Virus record (IMG/VR): IMGVR_UViG_3300028800_000172
Location: 1 to 41,779 of that record
Strand: one strand, 5' to 3'
Length of the DNA stretch: 41,779 bases
DNA from: a virus
Positions 2,999 to 29,360 of the stretch are shown here, in pieces. The notes below the pieces were generated by a model. The model was not told the DNA's origin. It did not search any database and worked only from the letters and a program-made list of their open reading frames with translations. Position numbers and translations under genes: made by a program. How positions within the stretch are numbered: the first letter of the stretch is position 1; every line of letters starts with the position of its first letter.

Positions 2999-3003
2999 GA
3001 CGG

Positions 3004-3396: not shown

Positions 3397-3403
3397 GTTT
3401 TGG

Positions 3404-3435: not shown

Positions 3436-3457
3436 GGGTAATTTTATTTCACGCTGG

Positions 3458-3896: not shown

Positions 3897-3904
3897 GGTT
3901 GGCC

Positions 3905-4623: not shown

Positions 4624-4889
4624 CGCAGTGTCCGCGCCTCTCTCAGGGTTTCGGCAATATTCTGGTTGATTGCCTCCATGGCAGCCGCCGTCGAGCGCTG
4701 CACCGCGTCCAAGAGGTCGTCCGCCCGCATCACACAAGAATAAAGCCAATGAATGTGGATGCCGCCCTTCCTGCAACCGCAATAGATGCGCACATCCGGC
4801 CCATCGATCTCGGTAATGGTTATGTTGATTTTGTATTCCGGAAGATCGAGAGACGCGGGGTGGATGGCTGCTACGTCGTGGATTCCCAT
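4617..4889 (-). CDS. Hypothetical 90-residue protein
   Basis: The ATG at 4889 follows GGAGCAATCGCA, a good ribosome site, and the gene ends 7 bp inside the convergent GIY-YIG/HTH gene. The protein has a beta-rich start (EYKINITITEIDGPDVRIYCGCRKGGIHIHW) and a helical end (DLLDAVQRSTAAAMEAINQNIAETLREA). The CGC and HIH residues could bind a metal. There is no membrane segment from this start. It is the only leftward gene in the rightward early region and shares a divergent intergenic region with the outer-membrane gene. The function is unknown. Confidence 0.5.
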   Translation of the reverse strand: MGIHDVAAIHPASLDLPEYKINITITEIDGPDVRIYCGCRKGGIHIHWLYSCVMRADDLLDAVQRSTAAAMEAINQNIAETLREARTLRH

Positions 4890-5022
4890 TGCGATTGCTC
4901 CAAAACTCCAAACACAATTTGCAATCACATAGGCACACCTCATCGCCGCGTTCACAACTTAATTTGCGCAAAGCAGTATTCCTCCCGGTGGAAAACTTCC
5001 AGTTGTTCCCATGTTGAGCCAC

Positions 5023-5081
5023 ATCGGAACTCGCTCGCGTTGGCATTACAGACGCCAACGCTAGAAGCATTGAGTTCCGAT
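5023..5081. repeat. Nested perfect inverted repeats
   Basis: Outer arms ATCGGAACTC (5023-5032) and GAGTTCCGAT (5072-5081) are perfect 10-bp complements. Inside them, GCGTTGGC (5037-5044) and GCCAACGC (5054-5061) are perfect 8-bp complements with a 9-nt loop. The whole folds as a two-tier stem with an asymmetric internal bulge. It lies in the 364-bp divergent gap between the 90-residue gene and the outer-membrane gene. It could be an operator, an RNA leader structure or a site for another protein; no T-run directly follows. Confidence 0.85.
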
Positions 5082-5116
5082 CCTTTTCTCCCAGCCCCAC
5101 CCCTCGGGGCCACCTT

Positions 5117-5141
5117 GGGCGGCTTTGCCGCTCCTTTTCTT
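5117..5141 (+). terminator. Possible rho-independent terminator or attenuator
   Basis: GGGCGGC and GCCGCTC pair over 7 bp around a TTT loop, followed by CCTTTTCTTC. The T-run is interrupted, so efficiency would be modest. It could end rightward transcription from the Cro operon before the outer-membrane gene, or act in that gene's own leader. Confidence 0.4.
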
Positions 5142-5253
5142 CAAGCGCGAGCCGCCGAGCATCCCCCGAAACGAGATGCCCGGCTCACGCACGCCTTACG
5201 CAACACACGCTTTCGCCGCGCCATGACGGCCCGGCAAACATGGGGAGTATGAA

Positions 5254-5952
5254 ATGAAGAAATTTCTCAGTTTGGCTTTGCTCTTGGGTTCGACGGCGCT
5301 CGCGAGTGCGGCGGATAATTTGCCGGTGAAGGCCGTCAATCCTTTTACGACCGGCTATCCGACCCGCTGCGGCGGTTATTATGGCATCGGCACTGGCGGC
5401 AATGCTGGCGCTGTCACTGGCGGCACAGTCGGCGAGCAGATCGTTCAGGGCGATCTTGACGCGCTGGTCGGTTATACCTGCCCGTTCGCGGGAAATGCCT
5501 TCTGGTTCGTAGAAGGACAGGCGGGGTTTTCGAACCTCAACGGCACGAGCAACGGCCTCGCGTTGTCCGGTCCGGGCGTTTTCATCGAACGAGCTGGCGT
5601 CGGTTCGCCGATCCAGCAGTATCTTTCCAGCATCCTTCCGAACCTCAATCTGCCGGCGCTTCCTTCGTTGCCATCCATTCCGGGCGCCACACCGAACGCC
5701 TCGCCGCAGTCCTATGGTTTCGTCGGTCTGGTCCAGCAGGACTTCGGCGCGCAGGTCGGCAACGCCTCCGCGCATGATTGGATCAATGCCCCGATCATCG
5801 GCGTGGGCCTTCTGACCCGCTACTCCAACAACATGGTCATCGACACATGGGCTGGCTGGCAGATGAACGCCACCAACTCGATTTGTTTGCAGGCTGGCGG
5901 GTGCATCAAACCCGGCAACATGGCGCGCGTAGGCGTTTCGCTGAAGTTCTGA
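5254..5952 (+). CDS. Phage-encoded outer-membrane-type protein with signal peptide
   Basis: This is a 232-residue protein with ATG at 5254 after GGGGAG. It opens with a Sec signal peptide (MKKFLSLALLLGSTALASA, cut before ADN). The mature part is rich in Gly, Asn and aromatic residues in alternating patterns, and it ends in VSLKF, a C-terminal Phe as in outer-membrane beta-barrels. Those features suggest an Omp-type barrel in the host outer membrane. A Leu/Pro-rich stretch (residues about 128-150) looks like an extracellular loop. It could be a lysogenic-conversion factor that changes surface receptors or excludes other phages. The export signal is plain; the barrel is inferred. Confidence 0.7.
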   Translation: MKKFLSLALLLGSTALASAADNLPVKAVNPFTTGYPTRCGGYYGIGTGGNAGAVTGGTVGEQIVQGDLDALVGYTCPFAGNAFWFVEGQAGFSNLNGTSNGLALSGPGVFIERAGVGSPIQQYLSSILPNLNLPALPSLPSIPGATPNASPQSYGFVGLVQQDFGAQVGNASAHDWINAPIIGVGLLTRYSNNMVIDTWAGWQMNATNSICLQAGGCIKPGNMARVGVSLKF

Positions 5953-6008
5953 CGGAGGGGCGGCGAGGGGGCAGGTCATGGCCTGTCCCCGTTTCTCAGG
6001 GGGTTTCG

Positions 6009-6122
6009 ATGCAGACGATCATTGATGGTGTCACGTTGCTCTGTTGGGCGCTTCTGATCGGCGCAGCTCTGGTCGGCATTGGGTTTAGCGGCTGGGCGCT
6101 CATCGCTCCCGCGTTTCAGTAA
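6009..6122 (+). CDS. 37-residue membrane peptide
   Basis: ATG at 6009, preceded by a GGGGG run about 5 nt upstream; stop at 6120-6122. The peptide is one long hydrophobic stretch (LLCWALLIGAALVGIGFSGWALIAP), so a single membrane span is expected. It lies 56 bp past the outer-membrane gene and could share its message. The function is unknown. Confidence 0.5.
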   Translation: MQTIIDGVTLLCWALLIGAALVGIGFSGWALIAPAFQ

Positions 6123-6219
6123 CAATTCAAGTGCGTTGCGGGTTGCCGCAGCGAGCCGGATGAACGGTAAGAGATCGTCGTCGGGCATTTGTTCAAAACA
6201 AAAATGTGAGGCGTCAGTC

Positions 6220-6741
6220 ATGGGCAGAGTATCCGCGCACGAGATCGAACTTGCAAAAACGGGAACCGCACAACCTTGCGGAAATCGACGCAGGGCTTTG
6301 CGGTTGAATGCCGCCGTCATGCAAAAAGCGCGTGACCTAAATCCTATTAAGACCTCGCACTATCTCGCCGACATCACAGGTTATTCGCTTCGCACTTGTG
6401 AATATTGGCTGAGCGAAAAGGTCGTCATTCCGAGTGACGCGCTGGCTGCGCTCATCCGATCAGAACAAGGGCGCGATTTCCTGGCTGAGGTAATGGCCGA
6501 TCAAACGCCGCGGTGGTGGAAACAGCTCAAAGCATGGATTGCCGCGACCAACATTCTGGCGGTCGAACGCAAACTCAAGCGCGAGAAGAAGCGGCTACTT
6601 GAGACAATTAACGGCGAGGAAATCGAATATGGCCCCGCGACTTCGTTTGCCGAGATGCTTCACGATCCGGAGTTTGCTGGCGCACAGGTTGCGCCGGTTG
6701 GCTCGACGCATCGCTCCATGGCTTCGCGGAGGGTGAGATGA
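6220..6741 (+). CDS. Putative phage DNA-binding regulator
   Basis: This is a 173-residue protein from ATG 6220 (GTGAGG upstream). Upstream in-frame starts exist at 6160 and 6079, but they run into the preceding peptide gene. The N-terminal half is basic. Residues about 45-85 look like a helix-turn-helix (TSHYLADITGYSLRTCEYWLSEKVVIPSDALAALIRSEQG). A tryptophan-rich linker and a basic helix (ERKLKREKKRLLETI) follow. DNA binding is inferred from the HTH-like pattern and charge; the target is unknown. Its stop overlaps the next ATG (ATGA). Confidence 0.55.
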   Translation: MGRVSAHEIELAKTGTAQPCGNRRRALRLNAAVMQKARDLNPIKTSHYLADITGYSLRTCEYWLSEKVVIPSDALAALIRSEQGRDFLAEVMADQTPRWWKQLKAWIAATNILAVERKLKREKKRLLETINGEEIEYGPATSFAEMLHDPEFAGAQVAPVGSTHRSMASRRVR

Positions 6742-6851
6742 GCTTTCTCTTTTGGGGCCTGATGATCTGGCTTTGCCTTCAACCGCTCGCGATTCCGCTG
6801 GGCCGCTTTCTGGCCGACCCGAGCAACGTCGATCCGCCATCGCAGGACTAA
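6738..6851 (+). CDS. 37-residue membrane peptide
   Basis: The ATG at 6738 overlaps the upstream stop as ATGA; TAA at 6849-6851. The peptide MSFLFWGLMIWLCLQPLAI is a hydrophobic N-terminal span. The remainder (GRFLADPSNVDPPSQD) is polar. Coupled translation with the regulator gene is likely. The function is unknown; the similar layout of other tiny membrane peptides in this genome supports it being real. Confidence 0.45.
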   Translation: MSFLFWGLMIWLCLQPLAIPLGRFLADPSNVDPPSQD

Positions 6852-6869
6852 CAGGGGGAATATGGGGCA

Positions 6870-7340
6870 ATGAGCATTACAGAGACGCACGTTTCCAACT
6901 TCAAGCTTCGTCAGGAACGATTGGCACGGCTCGGGGCCTTGCCGATCAAGAAAGACCCTTTGGTCATTAGACCGAAAGTGGAGCCTTACCCCTTCGACTT
7001 CGGTTGGGAGAATATGTGGTTCTACGAGCTCGTATGTGGCCGGCAGAGAAAGCTGGCTGTCAGTGCTCGGATGATTCAAATCGAAGCTTCTCAATATTTT
7101 AACATCTCGCTTGCCGATCTCCTCTCGCATCGCAAAACCAAGACCCTCGTGATTCCGCGCCAAATCGCGATTTACGTCATGAAGGTTCTTACACCACAGG
7201 GTTATGCCGCGATCGGCAGGGCATTCGGTGGGCGTGACCACTCGACCGTCATCCATGCCTGCCAGAAGATCGAAAGCCTGGTGGGAGTTAACGAGAATAT
7301 TACGGCAGCATTCATCAAGATCCGGGGGGCTTTTCTATGA
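6870..7340 (+). CDS. DnaA domain IV-like replication protein
   Basis: This is a 156-residue protein. Residues about 65-138 match the DnaA C-terminal DNA-binding domain: a helix before QYFNISLADLLSHRKTK, then PRQIAIYVMKVLT, and the signature GGRDHSTVIHA (residues 120-130), which in DnaA contacts the DnaA box. The AAA+ ATPase domain of DnaA is absent; the first 60 residues are unlike DnaA. Such stand-alone domains probably recognise DnaA-box-like sites at the phage origin or compete with host DnaA. ATG at 6870 has GGGGAAT upstream; the stop overlaps the next ATG. A second, diverged copy is at 11576-12004. Confidence 0.85.
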   Translation: MSITETHVSNFKLRQERLARLGALPIKKDPLVIRPKVEPYPFDFGWENMWFYELVCGRQRKLAVSARMIQIEASQYFNISLADLLSHRKTKTLVIPRQIAIYVMKVLTPQGYAAIGRAFGGRDHSTVIHACQKIESLVGVNENITAAFIKIRGAFL

Positions 7341-7519
7341 AGGCCCTCATCGATCTTGAACCGAACGATTGCCGGTATGTATGCACGGATGATTTTCAAT
7401 TCTGCGCACTACCGAAACACCTCTACCTTTTCGATGGCAAGCTTCGTCAATCGTCTTACTGCAAAGGTCATCACAATATTTGTTTGCGCCCCTTCGTTGA
7501 AAAGAAGGAGCGAGCATGA
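7337..7519 (+). CDS. GcrA C-terminal-domain-like protein
   Basis: This is a 60-residue protein whose ATG overlaps the upstream stop (ATGA). The pattern LEPNDCRY, then FCALP, then SSYCKGHH resembles the C-terminal part of GcrA, where a CRWP motif, an FCG motif and a PYC-x2-H motif follow in the same order. GcrA's C-terminal domain binds sigma-70 region 2. Here the CRWP tryptophan is replaced by tyrosine and the HTH is missing. The next gene encodes a GcrA-like HTH, so the two may act as a split regulator. The resemblance is by motif, not by search. Confidence 0.6.
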   Translation: MKALIDLEPNDCRYVCTDDFQFCALPKHLYLFDGKLRQSSYCKGHHNICLRPFVEKKERA

Positions 7520-7836
7520 GAGACCCCGATACTTATCAGCTTTGGACGCCGCACTGCGTTGCCGCTCTCTTGGGTTATCGAGCCAAGGGACTAACAATCC
7601 CGCAAATCGCAACCAGAATGCGACGCACGGATGATTCAGTCCGAACCAAGTTGAAGCTTCTCAAAGCCCCGCGAAAATCCAAGGTGAGAGTCCGGCCATC
7701 AAAGCCGATTACAACTTGCCTCGAAATGATGGCTGTCGAAAAAGATCGTGTTTGCGAGCTGTATACGCTCGGCTGGAGATTCGAACAGTTTTCCAACGAT
7801 GGCCTTTGCGTGATGCGGAAGGAGCGGCGGTTATGA
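7516..7836 (+). CDS. GcrA-N-like helix-turn-helix protein
   Basis: This is a 106-residue protein with ATG at 7516, an ATGA overlap and GAAGGAG upstream. Residues 10-48 (WTPHCVAALLGYRAKGLTIPQIATRMRRTDDSVRTKLKLL) have the spacing of the GcrA/SANT-type HTH: WT, a helix, GLT-x2-QIA, then a helix with VR-x-KL. A basic linker and a second small domain follow (MAVEKDRVCELYTLGWRF). It probably binds DNA. It follows the GcrA-C-like gene in an overlapping pair and precedes an adenine methyltransferase; host GcrA reads methylated GANTC sites. Confidence 0.55.
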   Translation: MRDPDTYQLWTPHCVAALLGYRAKGLTIPQIATRMRRTDDSVRTKLKLLKAPRKSKVRVRPSKPITTCLEMMAVEKDRVCELYTLGWRFEQFSNDGLCVMRKERRL

Positions 7837-8036
7837 TCCGAATCCTCGCCCTCCTGTGCCAGCTCTCCCACCCGGACAACTGCAACTGGACGACGATCAC
7901 CACGTCCGAGCAGCTTCAAATGTCGGATTGCTACAACCAAGCAAAGCTCGCGCAATGGATGCGGTCTCACCCGGCAGAACGGGTTGCGCGCGTGCGTTGT
8001 GAGTTCGGCAATCGGCAGAAGGGGAAGGATGTATGA
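7833..8036 (+). CDS. Hypothetical 67-residue protein
   Basis: The ATG at 7833 overlaps the upstream stop, with GGAAGGAGCGG upstream. The short hydrophobic start (MIRILALLCQL) is followed by SHPDNCNWTTIT, a DCY motif and a CEF motif. The start is too short for a clear signal peptide. Three or four spaced cysteines hint at disulfides or metal binding. It overlaps the methyltransferase ATG. The function is unknown. Confidence 0.55.
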   Translation: MIRILALLCQLSHPDNCNWTTITTSEQLQMSDCYNQAKLAQWMRSHPAERVARVRCEFGNRQKGKDV

Positions 8037-8566
8037 GCCAGCGCTATTCAGGTTACGAACGCAAAGAGCGGGATCTATACGAGACGCCCGAGTGGGTGAC
8101 GCTTGCGCTTGTGCCGCATATCCTCGATCTGATTCCGTCGAAGCTTATCTATGAGCCAGCCGCAGGAAGCGGCAAGATGGTATCAGCTCTCGTCAAGGGT
8201 GGCTTTGGAGTTAGGTCGGATGATCTATCAGAAGGTCGAGATTTCCTGAGCTGTTGGCACCTGAATTATCCAGACGAAGCGATCGTCACCAACCCGCCGT
8301 ATGAGCTAGCAACAGAGTTTATTGATCGCGCTCTTGCCCTGACTGCATCCAATGGTGTGGTCGCAATGTTGCTACGTACCGATTTCGATCATGCCAAAAG
8401 TAGGAAAGGAATGTTTGGCGAATGTTCAGTATTCGCCAAAAAGCTCGTCCTCACCAAGCGCATTAAGTGGTTCGAGGACTCCAAAGGCCAACCTTCATTC
8501 AACCATGCGTGGTTCATCTGGGATTGGAAACACCAGGGAGCGCCGACGTTGGCGTATGCTACGTGA
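8033..8566 (+). CDS. SAM-dependent DNA adenine methyltransferase-like
   Basis: This is a 177-residue protein with the class I methyltransferase motif I EPAAGSGKM (residues 41-49) for SAM binding, and motif IV NPPY at 87-90, typical of N6-adenine methyltransferases. The N-terminal YETPEW motif is usual in this phage family. At 177 residues it lacks an obvious large target-recognition domain. It may protect phage DNA from restriction or set methylation-dependent regulation. There is no cognate restriction gene nearby. ATG at 8033 overlaps the preceding stop. DNA specificity cannot be read from the sequence. Confidence 0.8.
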   Translation: MSQRYSGYERKERDLYETPEWVTLALVPHILDLIPSKLIYEPAAGSGKMVSALVKGGFGVRSDDLSEGRDFLSCWHLNYPDEAIVTNPPYELATEFIDRALALTASNGVVAMLLRTDFDHAKSRKGMFGECSVFAKKLVLTKRIKWFEDSKGQPSFNHAWFIWDWKHQGAPTLAYAT

Positions 8567-8853
8567 CCATCCCCCGCATCTACATCGCAGGCCCGATAAG
8601 GGGGAAGCCCGATTACAACCGCGCTGCGTTCGCAAAGGCAGCCGACCGACTGCGCGCCCAAGGCTACCAGGTCTACAACCCAGCGGCTGCGAACCTCGAA
8701 CACCTTCCCCTCAATCGCATCATGGGGATCGTGCTCGAACAGCTTTGCGAATGTGACGCTATCGCCATGCTCCCGCAGTGGTGGCGGAGTGGAGGGGCCA
8801 GGATCGAGTGGATGCTGGCGGGCTATTTGGGGAAGAGGAGGGTTTATTTGTGA
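8563..8853 (+). CDS. DUF4406-like nucleoside deoxyribosyltransferase-fold protein
   Basis: This is a 96-residue protein starting with GTG at 8563, which overlaps the methyltransferase stop (GTGA). The start YIAGPIRGKPDYNRAAF, the middle GYQVYNPAA, and the end CDAIAMLPQWWRSGGARIEWMLA follow the DUF4406 / nucleoside 2-deoxyribosyltransferase-like pattern. Those proteins bind nucleotides or nucleosides; the role in phages is not settled, perhaps base salvage or counter-defence. A longer in-frame ATG upstream (8467) would lie within the methyltransferase gene and is less likely. Confidence 0.75.
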   Translation: MTIPRIYIAGPIRGKPDYNRAAFAKAADRLRAQGYQVYNPAAANLEHLPLNRIMGIVLEQLCECDAIAMLPQWWRSGGARIEWMLAGYLGKRRVYL

Positions 8854-9029
8854 CGGACATATTCACCATTATTCGCAGACTTCGACGTTTGCCAAGACAT
8901 CACCGTATCGCGCATTTGCAGGCTCTTATCAGGATTGAACTTCCGCGATCACATCGTCGGCGCGAACTCGAAACGTATCTGAAGAACGAAATGCTTGCTC
9001 AATTGAGGGCCGAAGGTCGCGCCGCATGA
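8850..9029 (+). CDS. Hypothetical 59-residue basic protein
   Basis: GTG at 8850 overlaps the previous stop, with GAAGAGGAGGG upstream. The protein is rich in Arg, His and Leu (RRLRRLPRHHR, SHRRRELETYL), helical and strongly basic, which suggests nucleic-acid or acidic-partner binding. It overlaps the RusA gene's ATG. No family is recognised. Confidence 0.55.
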   Translation: MTDIFTIIRRLRRLPRHHRIAHLQALIRIELPRSHRRRELETYLKNEMLAQLRAEGRAA

Positions 9030-9400
9030 TGACATTTACGCTTCCATATCCCCCGAGTGTCAACGGCTTGTTTGCGAGCGGTAAGACGCGTCGCTTCAAG
9101 AGCCAGAAATACTGCGATTGGTTACTGGAAGCTGGCTTTCGTCTAGCGCAGCAAAAGCCCACGAAAATTAAGGGACAAGTTCACCTTCATTACGTTCTGC
9201 AAGAGAAGGACGACAAGATCCGGCGCGATCTCGCCAACTTCGAAAAGGCGACGACGGATTTGCTGGTCTCTCATGGGATTATTGAGGCGGACGATTGCCG
9301 GATTGTCCGAGAGATCACCATGAAGTGGGGACTAGTTGAGGGAATAGAGGTCACGATCAAATCGCTTTCACAACAGGAAGAGGTAGCCGATGTCGCGTGA
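9026..9400 (+). CDS. rusA: RusA-like Holliday junction resolvase
   Basis: This is a 124-residue protein with the RusA layout: LPYPPSVNGLF near the N-terminus (residues 6-15), the core RRDLANFEKATTDLL with Asp68, Lys74 and Asp78, and the acidic pair EADD (Asp89, Asp90). RusA cuts four-way junctions during recombination and resolves branched DNA before packaging. The length is typical (about 120 residues). ATGA overlap with the gene upstream. It sits beside the candidate annealing protein and replication genes, fitting a recombination-replication module. Confidence 0.88.
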   Translation: MMTFTLPYPPSVNGLFASGKTRRFKSQKYCDWLLEAGFRLAQQKPTKIKGQVHLHYVLQEKDDKIRRDLANFEKATTDLLVSHGIIEADDCRIVREITMKWGLVEGIEVTIKSLSQQEEVADVA

Positions 9401-9878
9401 AATTGAACTATCTCGTGGCCTTGTGGCCATCGTTGACGACGAAGATTTTGAGTGGCTATCAGCGCACTCATGGTGCGCAAAGCCAACGACGGGTGGAAAG
9501 TTCTACGCTCATCGCGGTGGTCGCGGTCATAGCATCTATATGCACAGAGCGATCATGGATGCTCCTGTTGGACTCGAAGTCGATCATGCTGATCGCGATA
9601 CACTAAACAACAGGCGAGAAAATCTTCGGATATGCACTCGGAGTGATAACTGCGCCAATTCCGCAAACCGGATCGGACAAAGCGGCTTTCGCGGAGTCGC
9701 GCTGGATAAGCGCAACGGAAAATGGTTTGCGATGATTTTCGCAGAAGGAAAGCGAACAAGAATTGGATCTTTCGAAGATCCAGTGCATGCGGCTCTTGCG
9801 CGCGACGCTGCGGCAAAAGAGAAGTTTGGCAGTTTTGCAATCTTGAATTTTCCAAGTGAAACAGGAGTAACGCTATGA
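9390..9878 (+). CDS. HNH homing endonuclease with AP2 domain
   Basis: This is a 162-residue protein. The N-terminal part (residues 1-95) is an HNH_3-type nuclease with MHRAIM, LEVDHADRDTLNNRRENLRICT; His64-Asp-class residues and the Asn pair are present. The C-terminal part (105-158: GFRGVALDKRNGKWFAMIFAEGKRTRIGSFE) is an AP2-type DNA-binding domain. This combination marks free-standing phage homing endonucleases. It begins 11 bp inside rusA and ends overlapping the next gene, so it is well integrated. It could mobilise itself or, in principle, an endonuclease-less intron. Confidence 0.88.
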   Translation: MSREIELSRGLVAIVDDEDFEWLSAHSWCAKPTTGGKFYAHRGGRGHSIYMHRAIMDAPVGLEVDHADRDTLNNRRENLRICTRSDNCANSANRIGQSGFRGVALDKRNGKWFAMIFAEGKRTRIGSFEDPVHAALARDAAAKEKFGSFAILNFPSETGVTL

Positions 9879-10639
9879 GTACCAAGACGGAATTGTGGGA
9901 TCGTCTCGGAAAAACCGATCCTAAGCATACGAGCAAGTTTCAACGCGCGGGAGGGTTTAAGGGAACGGCCATCAAGCCGATCTATTCAATCCATCGCATG
10001 ACCGAAGAGTTTGGCCCATGCGGGGCTGGTTGGGGCATCAACGAACCTACGTTTCAATTAGTTCATGGAAACGATGAGGTTCTTGTCTATTGCTATGTAA
10101 GCATTTGGCACGGAACGCGCGATAACACCGTGTTCGGCGTTGGGGGTGATAAGGCCATTGGCAAAAACCGCAATGGCGCATTCACCGACGATGAAGCATT
10201 CAAGAAAGCGTTCACTGACGCGATCACGAACGCCATGAAGTATATCGGTGTGAGCGCCGACGTTCATATGGGCCTATTTGATGACAGCAAATATGTCGAG
10301 TCTGTTCGTCAGAATCCACATGTGACCAGGCCGGCGGATATTTTCGAACCTGTCGATCACGATGAGCATGGCGAGGTCATTGACAATATTCCGGCTCCTG
10401 ATCCGGACTCTATCAAGAAGCTACGCGTTGCCGATCAGCGGCCGATTTTCAAAGAGCTTCAAGATGAAATCCAGGCGACAGCTTCGATCAAAGAATTACA
10501 GCAATGGGCTGAGCAAAACCGTAATCGGTTAGGTTCTCTCAAGTCTGATTGGCAGGATTTCCTGCGTGGCGTCTATGCGGAGCACTTGAAGGCTCTCCGA
10601 TTACTTGAACAAGGCGACGATATGCGGATGGCAGGATAG
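9875..10639 (+). CDS. Candidate single-strand annealing protein
   Basis: This is a 254-residue protein. The N-terminal 140 residues (WDRLGKTDPKHTSKFQRAGGFKGTAI, RMTEEFGPCGAGWGIN, VFGVGGDKAI, FTDAITNAMKYIGVSADVHMGLFDDSKY) match a phage family I recall as recombination proteins of the Rad52/ERF type. The C-terminal part is an acidic linker and helices. The position between RusA, an HNH gene and a small protein with an SSB-like tail supports annealing or recombination. The name of the family is from memory and is not certain. Confidence 0.5.
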   Translation: MSTKTELWDRLGKTDPKHTSKFQRAGGFKGTAIKPIYSIHRMTEEFGPCGAGWGINEPTFQLVHGNDEVLVYCYVSIWHGTRDNTVFGVGGDKAIGKNRNGAFTDDEAFKKAFTDAITNAMKYIGVSADVHMGLFDDSKYVESVRQNPHVTRPADIFEPVDHDEHGEVIDNIPAPDPDSIKKLRVADQRPIFKELQDEIQATASIKELQQWAEQNRNRLGSLKSDWQDFLRGVYAEHLKALRLLEQGDDMRMAG

Positions 10640-10642
10640 ATC

Positions 10643-10915
10643 ATGGCATACGAGCAAAGGGATAACAGCGGTTCGCTTTTTAAGAATGATCGAAAGGAAA
10701 AGAGCAGCCACCCGGACTACCAAGGGACCATGATGGTTGATGGTCGAGAATATTGGCTTTCCGGTTGGGTGAAGGAAGGAAACAAAGGAAAGTTCTTTTC
10801 TCTCGCCCTAAAGCCAAAAGATCAGCAGCGAAAGACCGATCCCATATCGACCGGCAGGCCACGCATGAATGACGCCCTTGACGATGAAATCCCATTCCTT
10901 GCGGAGTTTAGATAA
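10643..10915 (+). CDS. Small phage protein with SSB-like acidic tail
   Basis: This is a 90-residue protein starting [19 protein letters not shown]. It has a beta-rich middle ([34 protein letters not shown]), suggesting an OB-like small barrel. It ends [11 protein letters not shown], close to the DDDIPF tip by which bacterial SSB recruits partners. It follows the candidate annealing protein by 3 bp. Possible role: ssDNA binding or partner recruitment. The start and end motifs are conserved in phages I recall, usually unannotated. Confidence 0.6.
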
Positions 10916-11254
10916 TTGCAAAACCGATCTTTCATCACCGACGACGAGATCGACAAAGCGCTGGACTATTTGCGCGATAATGCCCGCGATGCAGCTCAGG
11001 CGCGGGCAGAGCGAATCTATGTTGAGGAATATCGCAAAACACTCAAGGCGCAACTCATGAAGGAGCACGGCCAAATGTCTGCCGTGCTCCAGGAGCGTGA
11101 GGCATATTCAGATCCTCGTTATGAACAGCATTTGGATGCGATCCGTGAAGCGGTCAGGTTGGATGAGTTTCATCGGTTCATGCGGATAGCGGCCGAAGCA
11201 AAGATTGAGGCCTGGCGCACGGCCAGCAGCAATGAACGGGCAATTAAAATATGA
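10916..11254 (+). CDS. Hypothetical 112-residue helical protein
   Basis: It starts with TTG at 10916, immediately after the upstream stop, with GCGGAG about 9 nt before. The protein is almost entirely helical and highly charged (EIDKALDYLRDNARDAAQARAERIYVEEYRKTLKAQLM), with coiled-coil potential. The end overlaps the next ATG (ATGA). It belongs to the recombination cluster. No known domain. Confidence 0.6.
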   Translation: MQNRSFITDDEIDKALDYLRDNARDAAQARAERIYVEEYRKTLKAQLMKEHGQMSAVLQEREAYSDPRYEQHLDAIREAVRLDEFHRFMRIAAEAKIEAWRTASSNERAIKI

Positions 11255-11607
11255 GGTACCCGCGCCAGCATAGCGAGAGACATTTGGAGTTCATTCGCTC
11301 GTTGCCGTGTTGCGTTTGTGGGAATGATATTGAGACGGAAGCTGCTCATTTGCGTGCCGGCAATCTCGACTATGGAAAACGATCTGCCGGGATGCAGGAG
11401 AAGTCACATGATTTTTGGTGTCTCCCCCTCTGTGGAATTCACCATCGCGAGCAACACCAGGCCAAAGAAAGCGAGTTCTGGAGCAAGCGCGGCATAGATC
11501 CTTGGAGAATGGCTTTGAGTCTGTATGCGTCGAGTGGGGATTCTGAAATGGCATATACGATCTTGGAGCGGCAAGGTGGATGCACTTCTTCAATCGCTAA
11601 GGGATAA
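11251..11607 (+). CDS. HNH-type phage nuclease (DUF968/Ref-like)
   Basis: This is a 118-residue protein. HLEFIRSLPCCVCG gives a zinc-binding CCVC, and EAAHLRAGN contains the HNH His. KSHDFWCLPLCGIHHREQHQ supplies the remaining Cys/His. This layout matches phage proteins of the DUF968 or Ref type, which are HNH nucleases used in recombination or replication. The tail is helical. It overlaps the next gene by 32 bp. Confidence 0.7.
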   Translation: MRYPRQHSERHLEFIRSLPCCVCGNDIETEAAHLRAGNLDYGKRSAGMQEKSHDFWCLPLCGIHHREQHQAKESEFWSKRGIDPWRMALSLYASSGDSEMAYTILERQGGCTSSIAKG

Positions 11608-12004
11608 TGCACGTTCGAAATACTGGTTCTGGATCGAGGAAGATATTGATCTGTGCAAATCGTGCACAGCTTCAATTGTCGCTATTCAAAAGGCGGTTTG
11701 TAGGCATTTTGAGATCACCCTTCACGAGCTGAAAGCAAATACCCGCGCACCGAATGAAGTGCTGGCGCGGCAGATAGGGATGTATCTTTCTCTCCAGTTC
11801 ACTGACCACTCGCACAATTTCATTGCGCAGAAGTTCAACCGGGCTGGACACAAGTGCTCGATCTGGTCGCGAGACAAGATCAAAAAACTACTCGGCGAAG
11901 GTCATCCCATCGCTCAAGACATAGAGGAAATCAAAGCACGTTTGTTAGTTGCGTCTGCGTCAGGCATCACATACGGGGCAGACCATGACGTTTTACGACG
12001 ATAG
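11576..12004 (+). CDS. Second, diverged DnaA domain IV-like protein
   Basis: This is a 142-residue protein from GTG 11576, with GGAG about 8 nt upstream. A longer frame from 11525 would overlap the HNH gene further. The segment IVAIQKAVCRHFEITLHELKANTRAPNEVLARQIGMYLSL, then IAQKFNRAGHKCSIWSRDKI, follows the helix order of DnaA domain IV. The signature GGRDHSTVxHA is altered to FNRAGHKCSIWSRDKI. So the DNA-box-contacting loop differs from the copy at 6870, implying another target or loss of binding. The C-terminal 25 residues are unlike DnaA. Confidence 0.6.
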   Translation: MDALLQSLRDNARSKYWFWIEEDIDLCKSCTASIVAIQKAVCRHFEITLHELKANTRAPNEVLARQIGMYLSLQFTDHSHNFIAQKFNRAGHKCSIWSRDKIKKLLGEGHPIAQDIEEIKARLLVASASGITYGADHDVLRR

Positions 12005-12197
12005 TTCAGTATCTAATGCCGAGATCGAGGCGGCTGCGGACGCGCTTAGGGTACTTTGGGAAAGTGATCGCAACCAACAGGCATTGCGCGAAACCGGAGC
12101 TGGGGCTGGGTGGCTATTCCAAGCTCAAGTAGCACTTGAAGCCGCACTCCGCTTTCGCGGCAAAAATGTCACCGAGGCGCCTGGAAATTATCAGTGA
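11985..12197 (+). CDS. Hypothetical 70-residue protein
   Basis: ATG at 11985, overlapping the DnaA-C-like gene by 20 bp; GGGG lies about 10 nt upstream. The sequence (SNAEIEAAADALRVLWESDRNQQALRETGAGAGWLFQAQVALEAAL) is helical. The stop overlaps the GTG of the replication gene (GTGA). It may be a small partner of the replication protein by position. No domain recognised. Confidence 0.5.
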   Translation: MTFYDDSSVSNAEIEAAADALRVLWESDRNQQALRETGAGAGWLFQAQVALEAALRFRGKNVTEAPGNYQ

Positions 12198-12931
12198 CAG
12201 TGCTGAGCGATTATGTCACCCGCATGGTTGAGGGTGGCTTGGATCAGGACGAGGCTATGCAGATAGCGGCGGAAATCTTCGCTGCTGGTGCTGCCGCGTA
12301 TGCCGAACGTCCCTCAAAAGCCGCGCTCCGAACCCGCAAATGGAGAGAGAAAAACCGTCACCAAAGCGTCACGGGTGACGCCACTGGCGATGAAAACGAG
12401 AGCGTCACAAACCGTCACAAACCGTCACAAGGCGTCACAGGTGATAAAGTGCCTAGAGAGAATAAGAATATAAGATCTTCTAGGCGCGGTACGCGCATCG
12501 GTGACGATTGGTCTCCATCACCGCCAGAACGCGAGCTTGCCAAGCAGGAAGGATTTTCAGATTCGGAGATTGACCGCGAAGCTTTGCGATTCCGCGATTA
12601 CTGGACGGCAGCCAGTGGAGCGAAGGCGGTCAAACACGATTGGGCGGCCACTTGGCGGAATTGGGTTCGCAATGCTGCGGACAAATTGGGACGTGCGCCA
12701 AAAATACCAGCGACAGCAACAATATCCAGCGGCAAACAGAAATACTACGCGCCGGCTGATAGCCCGCAACTATTCGCATGGGATGCGTTCACTCGACAAT
12801 CGACGGGCAAGAATTTACCGCGCGATCGCAATGGGGGCTGGAGAGTGGAAAGCGAATGGCCACCTGGCTACGTGAAACCGGACACTGAATTGATTGCCTT
12901 CGAAATTCCGAAATTGAAATCGGTTAGCTAA
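12194..12931 (+). CDS. O-like replication initiation protein containing the candidate origin
   Basis: This is a 245-residue protein starting with GTG at 12194. The N-terminal 55 residues are helical (MTVLSDYVTRMVEGGLDQDEAMQIAAEIFAAG) and basic. Residues about 55-95 are the low-complexity region encoded by iterons. Residues 100-165 (DDWSPSPPERELAKQEGF, FRDYWTAASGAKAVKHDWAATWRNWVRN) match a C-terminal motif shared by many phage replication proteins. By analogy with lambda O it should bind the iterons and recruit a helicase loader. No helicase or loader gene is recognised nearby. Initiator and origin are fused, as in lambdoid phages. Confidence 0.65.
   Translation: MTVLSDYVTRMVEGGLDQDEAMQIAAEIFAAGAAAYAERPSKAALRTRKWREKNRHQSVTGDATGDENESVTNRHKPSQGVTGDKVPRENKNIRSSRRGTRIGDDWSPSPPERELAKQEGFSDSEIDREALRFRDYWTAASGAKAVKHDWAATWRNWVRNAADKLGRAPKIPATATISSGKQKYYAPADSPQLFAWDAFTRQSTGKNLPRDRNGGWRVESEWPPGYVKPDTELIAFEIPKLKSVS
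12356..12480. repeat. Candidate replication origin: iterons plus AT-rich tract
   Basis: CGTCAC occurs at 12356, 12367, 12403, 12413, 12423 and 12433. The last four lie in 10-bp tandem units (CGTCACAA core, 12401-12440), one helical turn apart. Inverted copies (GTGACG) lie at 12375 and 12501. An AT-rich, purine-rich stretch (AATAAGAATATAAGAT, about 12461-12476) follows. The order iterons then AT-rich region inside the initiator gene matches lambda oriL. No functional proof is possible from sequence alone. Confidence 0.7.
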
Positions 12932-12960
12932 TTCTCGGACATCAAAAATGATCTCTCCCG

Positions 12961-13323
12961 ATGCTACCCCCATCGCCCACCACGCACCTCGACGAGATGG
13001 CATGGCAGGCTGCGGTGAACCGTGGCGAGCGGCTGTGGAGGGTTGTGGTTGAGTCTGCGCGGACGCCGGGGTTCATTCCATCTACGATGCCTCCAGGTGA
13101 CTCACATTTGGCGCGTGGTGCGTTAAACGAGGCTGAGGCTAGTCTGATAGCGGACGAGGCACAAAACGAACCAGTGGGCGCCCCATGGCCATTGCAGGAT
13201 GGCAGTAATACTACGGATACATCGCCGTCCGAGTTGACGCTGACCGCTAGAAGCGTGGTTTTGACGCCGGTGTCTGGGAAGGCTTGGGCGTGGGATTACC
13301 CGTCGAATACATGGCATGGTTGA
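12961..13323 (+). CDS. Hypothetical 120-residue protein
   Basis: ATG at 12961 with TCTCCCG upstream, so no clear ribosome site. The protein has a helix (DEMAWQAAVNRGERLWRVVVESAR), a Pro/Ser/Thr-rich middle and a short C-terminal beta part (KAWAWDYPSNTWHG). It overlaps the next gene by 8 bp. No family is recognised. The open frame is not matched by a better one on the other strand. Confidence 0.45.
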   Translation: MLPPSPTTHLDEMAWQAAVNRGERLWRVVVESARTPGFIPSTMPPGDSHLARGALNEAEASLIADEAQNEPVGAPWPLQDGSNTTDTSPSELTLTARSVVLTPVSGKAWAWDYPSNTWHG

Positions 13324-13516
13324 GCGGCTTGGAAGCATCCCAGAGCATCAGCGATGCCCTAATGGCGAGCGATGCATTATGACGCTAGATACGTGGGTAT
13401 CTATCCCGGCAGTGTTTGGCGGTAAGCCGGGCGACAAGGGGATTTGCAAGGGAAATAAAACTCGTTGCTCACGAGATTGCATTTCAGAGCAATACGACAA
13501 GGAATTTGGCAAATGA
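13316..13516 (+). CDS. Cysteine-rich 66-residue protein
   Basis: ATG at 13316 overlaps the upstream gene. Cysteines lie at CPNGERC, GICKGNKTRC and RDC, a pattern that fits metal binding or disulfides. There is no signal peptide. Its stop overlaps the next ATG (ATGA). The function is unknown. Confidence 0.45.
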   Translation: MVERLGSIPEHQRCPNGERCIMTLDTWVSIPAVFGGKPGDKGICKGNKTRCSRDCISEQYDKEFGK

Positions 13517-13611
13517 GCATGGCTGGGAACGGTGGCTCCATCCGCTGGAGCGTGGCGCAGATCTACAGCAAACGAGCGCACCCCCGCACAAATCTCACAT
13601 CGGCGCGATAA
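13513..13611 (+). CDS. 32-residue peptide
   Basis: The ATG at 13513 overlaps the previous stop (ATGA), TAA at 13609-13611. The sequence is MSMAGNGGSIRWSVAQIYSKRAHP plus a basic end. It fills the gap before the sigma factor gene. Support is only the overlap and position. Confidence 0.3.
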   Translation: MSMAGNGGSIRWSVAQIYSKRAHPRTNLTSAR

Positions 13612-13642
13612 TATAGATATGGGGTAAATTTTGGAGGTCGCT

Positions 13643-14359
13643 TTGGACCATGGCGTGACAGAAGCCGAGCAGAATCGCCTGATTCTGGAAAATATGGATT
13701 TGGTTTCAAAGGTTGCTTCAGAGTTTCGTGGTGGCAAGATTGAATTTGAGGAATTGCAGTCCATTGGGCGGGAAGGATTGGTAAAGGCCGCGCGGTCGTT
13801 TGATCCCTTAAAGGGAGCAAAGTTTTCGACATGGGCGAGGACTAAGATCGAATCTGTAATAAGCACGCAGATCCGCTCTCAACCCTCCGAATGGTATCCT
13901 AAGGATACTGACGATAGCTTGTCTCCCATGACCTCAGACAAGTTCGAGCGAATTTATGAGCATGATGTATGGGGCGATGGGGGCAATGCGATTGCAATTT
14001 CAGAAACATGGGCTCGGCTCAATAACTCCCCTGAAGACCTTGCACTACTCTTTGAAGACATTAGTGACAAGCGGTCAAAATTTGAAGCTGCATTCATTTC
14101 TCTTAGCGTAGCTCAGCGTAAATTGGTTCGTTGGGTCTATTTGACCCACCCGGCAATGAGCATCGAAGGAGCTTCCCGAGAGCTTCATATTTCACGCTTT
14201 GCGGCTGATAGGCTGCTAAAGAAAGCGCTTAAGACTATGCGAGAAGTCATTATCCGCATGGAAGACAACGAAATGGCGTTTGAGAGCAATACTGCCAATG
14301 TGCGCCGGCAACGAAAACGCGACATTCACGGCTGCGCTCTCGAAACTGTTGCTGCGTAG
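13643..14359 (+). CDS. Phage-encoded sigma-70-type factor
   Basis: This is a 238-residue protein from TTG 13643, placed 6-8 nt after GGAGG at 13633. Region 2: LILENMDLVSKVASEFRGGKIEFEELQSIGREGLVKAARSFDPLKGAKFSTWARTKIESVI (about residues 15-75), with the FDPxKGxKFSTWA core-binding and -10 reading motif. Region 4: SIEGASRELHISRFAADRLLKKALKTMRE (about residues 175-205). A reduced linker stands in for region 3. It likely redirects host RNA polymerase to late promoters. It is the last gene before the late operon. A basic C-terminal tail (RRQRKRD) is extra. Confidence 0.88.
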   Translation: MDHGVTEAEQNRLILENMDLVSKVASEFRGGKIEFEELQSIGREGLVKAARSFDPLKGAKFSTWARTKIESVISTQIRSQPSEWYPKDTDDSLSPMTSDKFERIYEHDVWGDGGNAIAISETWARLNNSPEDLALLFEDISDKRSKFEAAFISLSVAQRKLVRWVYLTHPAMSIEGASRELHISRFAADRLLKKALKTMREVIIRMEDNEMAFESNTANVRRQRKRDIHGCALETVAA

Positions 14360-22764: not shown

Positions 22765-23712
22765 ATGTCCATCTTGTCCGAACCGCACTTCCACAACGAG
22801 GCCGCAGCCTACGCTCGGCTAGAGTCTATCGTTTGGCCTGATGGAGCTTTCTGCCCGCGCTGCGGCGGTTTTGATCGCATTACGCCGGTCAAGGGTGGTC
22901 GAATTGGGTTGCGCCGCTGTGGCCCCTGCAAGCGCGAGTTCACAGTCAAGGTCGGCACGGTTTTTGAGGACAGCAAGATCAAGCTGCACCTCTGGTTTCA
23001 GGCCGCGCATTTGATGGCATCCAGCAAAAAGGGCATCAGTGCCCATCAACTGCACCGCACGCTGAAGGTCACTTACAAAACCGCTTGGTTCATGGAGCAT
23101 CGGCTTCGCGAGGCGATGCGCGATGGTCATTTTCCCCCGATGGGTGGCGAAGGCAAAACCGTGGAAATTGACGAAACTTTTGTAGGAGGACTCGAGAAAA
23201 ATAAGCACCGCAGCAAGCGCAAGCACATCGGCACGGGCGGCGCGGGCAAGGAAGCTGTTTTCTCTCTAGTTGAGCGCGGCGGCAAGGTTCGTTCTCACCA
23301 CGTCCCGCAGGTCACCGCAAAGACACTGCGGCCCATCCTGCAAGCACAGGTCGATGGCAAAACCGCCGTGATGACCGATGAAGGACTTGTAGCGAAAACC
23401 ATTGGCAGGGATTTCGAGAAGCACGAAACGGTCAATCATAGCTTGGGTGAGTACGTTCGCGGCGGTGCACATACAAATACGATTGAGGGCTACTTCTCCA
23501 TTCTCAAGCGCGGCATCAACGGCACGTTCCACCATGTCAGCCAACAGCATTTGAAGCGGTATCTGGCAGAGTTTGATTTTCGTTATAATAACCGTATTGC
23601 GCTTGGGGTTGATGATGCCTCTCGCACTGAGGTTGCGCTTCGTGGTATTGTTGGCAAGCGTTTGATGTACAAGGACTCGTCAAAGGCGTCGATTTACGCC
23701 CGCGACAACTAG
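22765..23712 (+). CDS. tnp: IS1595-family (ISXO2-like) transposase
   Basis: This is a 315-residue transposase from ATG 22765 after AAGGGGA. An N-terminal zinc ribbon (Cys30, Cys33, Cys52, Cys55) is followed by an HTH (KGISAHQLHRTLKVTYKTAWFMEHRL, about residues 89-114). The catalytic triad is D136 in VEIDETFVGG, D205 in AVMTDEG, and E241 in HTNTIEGYFSILKRG. All are intact, so the element could still move. It lies 40 bp inside the left terminal repeat. Confidence 0.95.
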   Translation: MSILSEPHFHNEAAAYARLESIVWPDGAFCPRCGGFDRITPVKGGRIGLRRCGPCKREFTVKVGTVFEDSKIKLHLWFQAAHLMASSKKGISAHQLHRTLKVTYKTAWFMEHRLREAMRDGHFPPMGGEGKTVEIDETFVGGLEKNKHRSKRKHIGTGGAGKEAVFSLVERGGKVRSHHVPQVTAKTLRPILQAQVDGKTAVMTDEGLVAKTIGRDFEKHETVNHSLGEYVRGGAHTNTIEGYFSILKRGINGTFHHVSQQHLKRYLAEFDFRYNNRIALGVDDASRTEVALRGIVGKRLMYKDSSKASIYARDN

Positions 23713-23726: not shown

Positions 23727-24497
23727 ATGCCCCGGAAACCGCGCACTACCAGGGCGGGTACTGAGTATCGATTCAGGATCGACGCCTACACGCCCGAAAA
23801 TATGCCCATGGCTCGGCTTGCCGAGTACATGGCAGAACTCGCTCTGCTTTTGGGTGAGCAAGCGGCTGTGCATTTCAGGCGGCTTGCTCGCGGTAGCACT
23901 GTCTTAGTGCACAGCGTCGATAATGAGGCTGTGCCTAAGGTGCGGAAGCGGACGGCGGCTGTCCGCCGTGGCGATGCACCTCAAGAAGCACAACGCGCCT
24001 TTAAGACGCTGAACCGATTCCTCCGTGAGGATAATGCTGTTGGTTCTCTTCGAGAGAAAAAGACAACCGCTGTGGTGCTGAAATTTCCCGGCCGACTGGA
24101 GCCGGAGGAAAAGTTCACGGCTGTCCGACAGCATGGCTCCATCGATGGAATCATCAATCGGATTGGAGGAAGAGACGACACCGTACATGTTTCTCTGGAA
24201 ATGGATGGGAAGCAGGTCAGCGGTTGCTATACGAATAGGGCCGTCGCGAAAGAATTGCGTCATGTGTTATTCGATACCGTTCGTCTATTCGGGCGCGGCA
24301 AATGGAGCCGCGACGGAGACGGAAATTGGTCTCTCGACGAGTTTAAGATCGAAGGATTTGAGCCGCTAAAGGAGGCTCCACTTTCTCAGGTTCTAACCGA
24401 ACTGCGTTCCATTCCAACTGAATGGACGGATGAGTCTTACGCTCAATTACAAGCGATCCGACGCGGCCCAGAAGGTAGGGGTAATGGAGGCCATTGA
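23727..24497 (+). CDS. Transposon cargo protein, partner of a PIN protein
   Basis: This is a 256-residue protein from ATG 23727, 14 bp past the transposase stop. It is alpha/beta in appearance: MARLAEYMAELALLLGEQAAVHFRRLARGSTVLVHSV at the start, a basic segment (KVRKRTAAVRRGDAPQEA), and beta blocks (TVHVSLEMDGKQVSGCY). I do not recognise a named domain. It overlaps the PIN-domain gene by 14 bp, as toxin-antitoxin partners often do. It could be an antitoxin, regulator or target adaptor of the PIN protein. It is too long for a usual VapB. Confidence 0.6.
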   Translation: MPRKPRTTRAGTEYRFRIDAYTPENMPMARLAEYMAELALLLGEQAAVHFRRLARGSTVLVHSVDNEAVPKVRKRTAAVRRGDAPQEAQRAFKTLNRFLREDNAVGSLREKKTTAVVLKFPGRLEPEEKFTAVRQHGSIDGIINRIGGRDDTVHVSLEMDGKQVSGCYTNRAVAKELRHVLFDTVRLFGRGKWSRDGDGNWSLDEFKIEGFEPLKEAPLSQVLTELRSIPTEWTDESYAQLQAIRRGPEGRGNGGH

Positions 24498-25086
24498 TGC
24501 CACCATGTTACTCCTGCTCTTACGGCCGGGGACGAAAGTTCCGGCCGACGCTGAAGGAGTCGAAATCGAGAAGCCGAAGGAGCGTATTGAATTTCTGATC
24601 CAGCGCCTTCAGCGAGAGAAAACAAAACTAATCATACCCACGCCCGCGCTGAGTGAGGCCCTTGTTCGGGCTGGAAACGAAGGAGCGGCGCAGATTGTCG
24701 AACATCTCAATAAGTTCGCTGTGTTTCGTATAGAGCCGTTCGATACACGCGCGGCCATTGAACTAGCAGCAATGTCTCGCGAAGCGCTGGGGCGGGCTGG
24801 CAAGCGCGGCGGGACAACTGCCGTTTGGGCTAAGGTGAAATTCGATAGACAGATAGTCGCTATTGCCAAGGTTGTCGGCGCCTCCGTGATTTATACAGAT
24901 GACGGAGATGTCGTTACGTTCGCGAAACAAGCTGGTATCAAAGCAATAGGTCTGACAGACCTTCCTCTTCCCGTAGAGGATAGGCAGTTCAGGTTAAACT
25001 TAGAGGGCCATGGTGATGCCGACGTCCCCGCGCCAAAAGAACCTGAAGAAGAGACTCTCGGTCCAGAAGATCAGCCAAGCGCCTAG
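24484..25086 (+). CDS. PIN-domain RNase-like cargo protein
   Basis: This is a 200-residue protein from ATG 24484 (GGTAGGGGTA upstream). The N-terminus MEAIDATMLLLLLRP carries the first PIN aspartate; SEALVRAG holds the conserved Glu. The third acidic cluster and last strand are FDRQIVAIAKVVGASVIYTDDGDV. This is the PIN fold of VapC-type RNases, with two acidic extensions, residues about 20-35 and the C-terminal 30. The overlap with the upstream gene suggests a co-translated pair. Metal-dependent RNase activity is inferred. Confidence 0.75.
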   Translation: MEAIDATMLLLLLRPGTKVPADAEGVEIEKPKERIEFLIQRLQREKTKLIIPTPALSEALVRAGNEGAAQIVEHLNKFAVFRIEPFDTRAAIELAAMSREALGRAGKRGGTTAVWAKVKFDRQIVAIAKVVGASVIYTDDGDVVTFAKQAGIKAIGLTDLPLPVEDRQFRLNLEGHGDADVPAPKEPEEETLGPEDQPSA

Positions 25087-27226: not shown

Positions 27227-27430
27227 TTCCGTCCGGCCGGATAAGCCGTGTTCTAAAACACTTTGCCTTGGCTTCCTGATGTGCCGTCAAACATCTCGCT
27301 TCTACCGAATTATGAATTCGTCCTGGCGATTTCTCCAGTGCTGCGCAGAAACCCACAACCGAAGTCGCGCATCGGCCCGCACCGCCTGCTGGGAAAGGGC
27401 AGGCTCGCAGCACAATTGGAGATGTCCATC

Positions 27431-28931
27431 ATGGCTGGTAACAGCCTTCTGACGATCTCGATGATTACCCGAGAGGCCATCGAACTCTTCGTCAACACTT
27501 AATTCGTAGGTGCGCCTATCGGTGACGATAGGTTGAAACTGGGTGAACTGCTGGAAACTCCGACCGCATGATGATGGCGAGGACAATCAGCAGCCAAGCT
27601 GCACATGTAGGGCGTGTCGCCTGAGGGGTGCAGAAGGTTCAACGACTAGGTCCCGCGCGAAAGCAGTAATGGACCCACGAGTGCCCAGCATCTCTCTGAG
27701 ATGAAGATATAGCCTGAGCCGGCGAGTAATCGTCGGAAGCGCGGGATAAAGAGCCCACGCGATAACACTACTGAACGCATTCATCAAAAACCTCGATCGG
27801 CAGTACGACTCCGAATTCGGAAAGAACGGCGAAAAAATCGGTAGCCAGCTTCGCATCAGGCTGCCGAACGACTACACGGTGCGTCACGGCCCTGCCGTTT
27901 CTATTCAGGACACTTCGGAACAGCAGATCGTTCTGACGATGGCAACGCAGGACGGCGTTGACGTGTCGTTCTCGACTGCCGACCTCTATCTCTCGCTGGA
28001 TGACTTCTCGGAGCGCATTTTGCTTCCGATGATGAACAACCTGGCGGGCGATGTTGCGTCCACCATCATGTCGTCGAACGCGCTTGCGCTCTGCAACATG
28101 AACGCAAATCTGGATGCGAACGGAGGACTGCTTACTCCGAACGACGGGACGTTCCTCAACGCGCAGGCTACTCTGGCGTTGAACTCGACCCCTCCGGGCG
28201 TGATGCAGAAGATCATCAACGATCCTCGCACCGAGGCTCGCGTGGTGACCTCGCTAGCTGGCTTGCTGAATCCGGCGACAGCGATCAGCGATCAGTACTA
28301 CGACGGCGTGATGTACCGTGCTCTTGGTGCCATGTGGTATCACGATCAGACGGTCATCAAGGCCACCACCGGTACTGCGACTAGCGATACCGTAAACGGT
28401 GCCGGTCAGACCGGCACGTCTTTGACGGTCAACGCGCTGTCTGGCACGTACAATGTTGGCGATATTTTCTCGATCGCCAATGTGAACGCGGTCAACATGG
28501 TGACCAAGCAGACGACTGGTGAAGTTCGCCAGTTTGTTGTGACGGTTGCTGCGGCTGCCAACGCGACGACGTTGACCTTCTTCCCGGCGCTCATTCCGTC
28601 TGCGAATGGTGTGGCGGGTGGTCCTTCGGTTCAGTATCAGACCGTTGACTCTTCGCCGGCCAACAACGCGACGATCACGCCGTACCTGCCTGCCTCGACC
28701 ACGTATCGGAATAACTTCCGCTACTCGCCGCAGGCTATCACGATGGCGACTGGTGACTTGCCACTTCCGGCGAACAAGGTCACTGCGCGTCACAAGTATG
28801 ACAACGTGTCGATGCGTGCGATTACCGATTACATGATCGGTACGGACCAGGAGATTACGAGGCTTGATGTCCTCTTCGGCTCGTTGACCATTCGTCCTCA
28901 GTGGGGCGTCAGAATTCCGGACCTGATCTGA
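27431..28931 (+). CDS. Major coat protein, P22 gp5-like, split by a group I intron
   Basis: The coding sequence is the join of 27431-27499 and 27774-28931, giving 408 residues. Exon 1 encodes MAGNSLLTISMITREAIELFVNT (23 residues); exon 2 continues NAFIKNLDRQYDSEFGKNG. The start follows TTGGAGATG. After the join the protein reads as P22-type coat proteins do: MxxNSLLTISMITREA, then NRQYDxxF, then GPAVSIQDTSEQQIVLTMATQDGVDVSFSTADLYLSLDDFSERI. The length is close to P22 gp5 (430). Without splicing, translation would stop right after FVNT (TAA at 27500). Forms the icosahedral head. Confidence 0.88.
27500..27773 (+). ncRNA. Group I self-splicing intron, 274 nt, no ORF
   Basis: Core elements are visible: P1 pairs exon CACT plus the first intron U (27496-27500) with AGGTG (27508-27512), giving the U-G wobble at the splice site. 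P2 is CCTATC/GATAGG (27515-27532). The Q-like element is CAATCAGCAGCC, the R element GTTCAACGACTA (27637-27648), the S element AAGATATAG (27704-27712), with P7 GCUA-type pairing and a bulged A. A P9-like hairpin CCGGCGA/TCGTCGG lies at 27719-27736. The intron ends in the terminal G (27773). Splicing restores the coat frame. There is no endonuclease ORF inside. Confidence 0.92.
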
Positions 28932-28962
28932 GATCTGACGCTAAGCGATCTCTAACGAACAT

Positions 28963-28993
28963 CCCTTGGGGCGAAATCCCCAAGGGCTTTTTT
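28963..28993 (+). terminator. Strong rho-independent terminator after the coat gene
   Basis: CCCTTGGGG (28963-28971) pairs perfectly with CCCCAAGGG (28978-28986) around a 6-nt loop, followed by C and six T (28988-28993). It lies 31 bp past the coat stop codon. It would reduce readthrough into tail genes, giving more coat transcript than tail transcript. Confidence 0.95.
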
Positions 28994-29015
28994 ATGCAAA
29001 CAGGACAGGTTCTAA

Positions 29016-29360
29016 ATGAACAAAATCTATGACATCCGCGATCAAATGCCGAAGTTCGCGGCCAACTTCTTCCCTCCGTATGAGCGTGAGGGAAAAGACT
29101 ATCCGAAGATGATGATTAATCCGGAGACGAAGAAGCCGTATCTGGACAAGGCCAAGAACATCATCGTGGTTCAGGACGAGCACGAGGAGAAACTTTTCCT
29201 CGCTCAGCACTATAAGCCGGAAACGCCAAAGTCGATTGATGTGCTTGTGGCAAATGCCGATCTTCCTGTTGCTCAGGTTGAGCAGCGGTTGGCTGAAGCA
29301 GACACGCCGGCCAAGCGCGGTCCAGGTCGTCCTCCGATGCCGAAAACGCTGACGGCGTAA
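29016..29360 (+). CDS. Hypothetical 114-residue protein
   Basis: ATG at 29016 with a weak AGG upstream; abuts the next ATG. The sequence (MNKIYDIRDQMPKFAANFFPPYEREGKDYPKMMINPETKKPYLDKAKNIIVVQDEHEEK) is mixed. It ends with TPAKRGPGRPPMPKTLTA, an AT-hook-like GRP motif. A role in head completion or DNA contact is possible by position. Confidence 0.6.
   Translation: MNKIYDIRDQMPKFAANFFPPYEREGKDYPKMMINPETKKPYLDKAKNIIVVQDEHEEKLFLAQHYKPETPKSIDVLVANADLPVAQVEQRLAEADTPAKRGPGRPPMPKTLTA

Follow-up and report, generated by a model that had tools for sequence, protein, structure and literature searches.

An ORF-less group I intron in a P22-type phage coat gene, and recurrent introns in the coat genes of its relatives

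Among cultured phages, introns have been listed chiefly in nucleotide-metabolism and polymerase genes. Capsid genes, too, are documented hosts: splicing of the intron in the late-expressed major capsid gene of mycobacteriophage LittleE was demonstrated by RT-PCR and N-terminal protein sequencing (PMC3706429), another capsid-gene intron, that of Tuc2009, is cited in the same report, and group I introns occur in the MCP genes of crAss-like phages (PMC7886860). Here, I show that an ORF-less group I intron of 274 nt interrupts the P22-type coat gene encoded in a window of 41,779 b, that is, the whole stretch of DNA analysed, a single uncultivated phage contig from an environmental sample; all intron and exon coordinates below refer to its + strand. 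The intron adds a new phage gene family to those hosting a known kind of element, and its surroundings matter more: an apparent insertion hotspot, a bias towards capsid genes and core-less mini-inserts in relatives are more surprising than the intron itself.

Like the window intron, that of LittleE (PMC3706429) is a probable group I intron in a major capsid gene, preceded by U and ending in G; unlike it, the LittleE intron is 819 bp long, encodes an endonuclease ORF and belongs to an unrelated capsid family and host, whereas the ORF-less 274-nt window intron is known from sequence. The MCP genes of the Delta/Zeta crAss-like phages (PMC7886860) resemble the coat family described here in having recurrent group I insertions, several per gene, but those introns were identified mainly via their endonuclease domains, and both the phages and the insertion sites differ. 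A search of annotated phages found nothing closely related to the window intron, the best DNA match to its core (80% over 65 bases) being the thyX intron of Alteromonas phage AD45 (KF005317). The latter scores 105.7 bits against RF00028, yet it differs in sitting in a thymidylate synthase gene, in having two hairpins in the P7-P3 interval and in lying near endonuclease ORFs.

The coat gene (27431-28931) lies in a head-gene block whose order fits a P22-type coat, with terminase (18083), portal (19772) and scaffold (26238) upstream and adaptor (29361) and closure (30596) downstream. Exon 1 (27431-27499) consists of 23 codons (MAGNSLLTISMITREAIELFVNT), its last base being U, as established by translation and by alignment with uninterrupted relatives; exon 2 (27774-28931) comprises 385 codons plus the stop and by itself matches P22_CoatProtein (PF11651, 3.1e-21). 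Removing 27500-27773 yields a 408-codon ORF, whose product matches the major head protein family phrog_283 (5.9e-50).

That this segment is a group I intron had been proposed from the letters alone, together with a covariance-model search as the check. The search returned a single Rfam match in the whole window, and thus no second intron: RF00028 at 27490-27736, covering the full model (1-253) with 70.2 bits (E 5.8e-16), well above the gathering score of 50 bits, so that the refuting outcome named beforehand, a score under threshold, did not arise. The borders come from an empty site. The IMG/VR contig L002 is syntenic with the window, encodes a coat protein 87% identical and lacks the intron; its DNA aligns by blastn to window positions 27315-27498 (82.5% identity) and 27773-29158 (75.6%), and the two aligned segments meet exactly at L002 3071/3072, corresponding to 27498 and 27773, which fixes the insertion to the base and sets G27773 as the terminal G. 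Counting that of L002, 224 distinct coat genes read through the same site without interruption. Translation bears out to the base the claim that the gene is interrupted after codon 23, the unspliced frame running into TAA at 27500-27502, which begins with the first base of the intron; full-length coat does require splicing, as that reading had it, for only excision restores the 408-codon frame. Thermodynamic folding was discarded as a line of evidence, the minimum free energy being uninformative (z -1.14).

The anatomy of the intron is that of a group I ribozyme, and by anatomy only it is tentatively assigned as IA2-like. The internal guide GGUG (27509-27512) pairs with exon bases CACU (27496-27499) to form a P1 of 4 bp, ended by the U.G pair between U27499, which precedes the 5' splice site, and G27509. 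There follow the P2 hairpin CCUAUC/GAUAGG (27515-27532), seen in the sequence and also present in the minimum free energy fold; the 5' strand of P3, CUGGG (27539-27543), whose partner is CCCAG at 27684-27688; and the P4-P5 domain (27548-27593), in which CUGCUG (27548-27553) faces CAGCAG (27588-27593), these last two being supported by the sequence and by the RF00028 alignment. The R element AAGGUUCAACGACUA (27634-27648), identified by aligning 41 related introns, includes the P7 5' strand GACUA (27644-27648), and the S element AAGAUAUAGCC (27704-27714) contains the 3' strand UAGCC. Between P7 and P3, where subgroup IA2 has the extra helices P7.1 and P7.2, stands one hairpin, P7.1 (GGUCC/GGACC, 27649-27675), with two-sided changes in all five pairs; P8 (CAUCUC/GAGAUG, 27689-27703) and P9 (CCGGCGA/UCGUCGG with a GUAA loop, 27719-27736) likewise covary. 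A 3' hairpin (P9.1/P9.2, 27739-27760) displays the invariant loop AUAAAGAG, with 96.5% of cells paired and six of seven pairs changed on both sides. Over the 41 introns, the structure of the 3' half pairs in 91.1% of cells, and helix covariation is 0.637 as against 0.141 +/- 0.011 in shuffled alignments and at most 0.114 when the structure is slid.

Hence P2, R, S and the terminal G are all visible, as the sequence-only reading had it, whereas its P1 is just 4 bp long and not significant by itself against shuffled exons (p 0.66), the weakest among the 11 inserts compared. Four of the five P7 pairs are standard, including the guanosine-binding G-C; the fifth, adjoining it and involving the C at 27713, is an A.C mismatch where A-U stands in 40 of the 41 aligned introns, so that activity may be lowered or the base may be a sequencing error. 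This mismatch and the shortest P1 of the set are what would speak for an intron that is degenerating or splices poorly, in a recorded genome partly defective or carrying a base error. I consider this unlikely, since both exons are open and the gene is evidently under constraint, the coat protein being 87% identical to that of L002 as against 75.6% for the DNA. Nor is a single A.C pair or a 4-bp P1 known to be disqualifying in group I ribozymes.

Very probably, then, this is a self-splicing, ORF-less group I intron of the IA2-like type frequent in tailed phages, placed after codon 23 of a P22-type coat gene; most likely, it is a mobile element or what remains of one. A ribosome would translate 23 codons and halt at the UAA where exon 1 ends, so that the intron could fold unhindered; such introns are known to have in-frame stops close to their 5' splice sites, which have been viewed as keeping ribosomes out (PMC3984707). 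Guanosine bound in P7 would attack after U27499 within P1, and the freed exon 1 would in turn attack after G27773, giving the message for the 408-codon coat. I infer such splicing activity, as well as spread by homing or recombination. The 274 nt of the intron hold no homing endonuclease ORF, its own endonuclease having most likely been lost or never present. A free-standing HNH_3+AP2 endonuclease ORF occurs at 9390-9878, 17.6 kb from the intron, with no sign of a link between the two.

Coat genes of this family are interrupted in six relatives, at six sites, five of which fall within codons 9-34 (window numbering): codon 9 phase 2 (intron 1 of both L073 and L116), codon 19 phase 2 (L071), after codon 23 (the window intron and the mini-inserts of L116 and L229 considered below), after codon 25 (L073 intron 2) and codon 34 phase 1 (L038, L116 and L229). 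The sixth, at about codon 86 in phage ctn9Y15 (L047), was called by inspection, and Rfam at E 0.1 gave no match to the insert. All inserts are preceded by U, end in G and have a guide of 5-8 bp, the 4 bp of the window being the exception. Two intron types are represented. The window intron, that of L071 and L073 intron 2 have the AUAAAGAG hairpin in common, while a second core type is common to L073 intron 1, L116, L229 and L038. In the P7-P3 interval, window-type introns have a single covarying hairpin, as against two in L073 intron 1, L038 and AD45. The 3' part of L073 intron 2 (S element and AUAAAGAG hairpin) also matches, by blastn, the introns of Streptococcus thermophilus lysin and JCL1032 tape-measure genes, hosts other than coat. 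The codon-34 intron of L038 includes an HNH-like coding sequence read by eye; a Pfam scan of its stop-masked translation matched no family, so the reading is one of frame inspection. The interruption test also covered prophage relatives at 9 loci in bacterial genomes and flagged none of them as split.

A case in point for turnover concerns L071 and L073: their coats are 97% identical, yet L071 carries one intron and L073 two, with no site in common, which points to fast gain and loss. L071 and L073 intron 2 are window-type introns at other nearby codons, with guides altered to match. In the tree of this type they cluster, but together with L219, and the ORF downstream in L219 showed no match to this coat; local movement of the pair is therefore not proven. 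The tree gave the window intron a long branch and no firm place, for which reason I do not claim that it jumped within the coat gene.

Some of these loci have further peculiarities. The coat gene of L116 (2252-3019) contains two full group I introns plus a mini-insert, with intervening exons of about 44 and 30 nt, and its short middle exon has a 1-nt frameshift relative to L229. Exon 2 of L071 has an in-frame stop (FA*APQM) in an otherwise well-conserved coat, which reflects a base error or else a broken gene. In L015, a partial extra coat N-terminus (4807-4971; residues 8-62, about 60% identical) lies just upstream of an intact coat gene.

The sequence-only reading had also suggested that the intron could be a timing element, with coat supply set by the speed of splicing. 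In such a timing or dosage role, slow intron removal would postpone or cap coat production compared with scaffold and portal. Coat is indeed a late protein in high demand, the weak P1 and the P7 mismatch could slow splicing, and GTP-sensitive 'molecular switches' have been contemplated for phage introns (PMC11878797). Nevertheless, this is very unlikely: the absence of the intron from the 224 coat genes, that of the 87%-identical L002 among them, is a patchiness that argues against an essential role and is more in keeping with a mobile element that can be dispensed with than with a timer that the phage needs; introns turn over between 97%-identical coats; and insertion sites and intron types vary among relatives, so that no conserved regulatory design is seen. 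An insertion that stays in the RNA, be it an intein, a ribosome-bypass element or an assembly artefact, found no supporting point and is in the main refuted by the initial in-frame stop and lack of an ORF, by the group I covariance score and covarying helices, and by homologous introns in the coat gene of independent contigs, which leaves it a negligible probability. The preferred reading is that of a mobile intron which would persist since it splices well enough, one among many recurrent, fast-turnover insertions in the coat gene.

At the very insertion site of the window intron, L229 (2617-2671, 55 nt) and L116 (2616-2700, 85 nt) harbour inserts with in-frame stops, a perfect guide helix AACACU:GGUGUU and a terminal G, and with no catalytic core. 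The two inserts have the same 12-nt guide, GCATTGGTGTTT, but are otherwise unalike; the L229 insert additionally has a 5-bp P10. A full intron lies 30-odd nt downstream of each. Ribosome bypass was dropped as an explanation for want of a matching pair of take-off and landing codons; exon skipping, which would shift the frame, was dropped as well. Non-autonomous mini-introns of this sort would need removal by the core of the neighbouring full intron and, if that is true, would be a natural counterpart of engineered spliceozymes (PMC4509937). The joint reading, an intron hotspot in the N-arm codons of P22-type coat genes that also hosts core-less, trans-removed mini-introns, is possible, though unlikely.

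The view that a coat gene is an unusual intron host does not hold, given the published capsid introns and the lead of major-head-protein genes in two IMG/VR samples. The first, recruited with a DNA pattern for the window-type core, comprises 99 contig stretches; the AUAAAGAG motif is present in 56 of 100 pattern matches, and many matches lie within major-head-protein genes whose families are unrelated to one another (phrog_1328/SU10, phrog_1005/cap_E, phrog_1357, phrog_267, phrog_9953 and phrog_283). About 24 memberships among its 68 deduplicated downstream exons are of head-protein families, bearing in mind that one protein may match several families. The second sample was recruited by a broader pattern for the core; its 79 listed exons include at least 13 matches to phrog_1328, at least 8 to 267, at least 6 to 3437, at least 4 to 1357, at least 3 to 14242 and at least 2 to 9953. 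Among the matches listed in these two samples, which are sequence-pattern recruits and not a census, major-capsid genes of at least six families are the commonest identifiable class of intron host. Introns in the capsid genes of phrog_1328, 1005, 1357, 267 and 9953 have the core and the AUAAAGAG 3' hairpin as in the window, the nearest alignment rows being 72% identical to the window intron.

Since hallmark genes partly drive the recruitment of virus contigs, those of at least 30 kb were considered separately: by a hand count among the matches listed, capsid genes make up about 13 of the 46 cases left after deduplication, a lower share, yet the largest identifiable class besides endonuclease ORFs, which were set aside as part of introns and not host genes. 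In these uncultivated-virus samples, major capsid genes thus emerge as a prime intron host, and a literature search, covering journals outside subscription, found no paper naming capsid genes as a main host of such introns. Should the bias hold under unbiased sampling, the annotation of capsids in uncultivated phages and the phylogenies built on them would be affected, and how to splice efficiently within the late gene with the highest expression would be a common and testable phage problem. Window-type introns (IMG/VR loci L130-L228 and L507-L624) also occur in DFDGD-type RNA polymerase and DnaB genes, and one phrog_1357 capsid gene (L179:3712-4594) has two of them.

Within the window, an IS1595-family transposase (22765-23712) lies inside the head block, between the portal and scaffold genes, and adjoins a PIN-domain ORF (24430-25086); a T5orf172/MUG113 (GIY-YIG-like) ORF with an HTH is found at 4111-4623. 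The noncoding coat leader (27315-27430), together with exon 1, is 82.5% identical to L002, as against 75.6% for the downstream coding part, and contains the complements GTGCTGCG...CGCAGCAC and GCCTGC...GCAGGC; by virtue of this conservation and these complements, it may be a structured regulatory leader.
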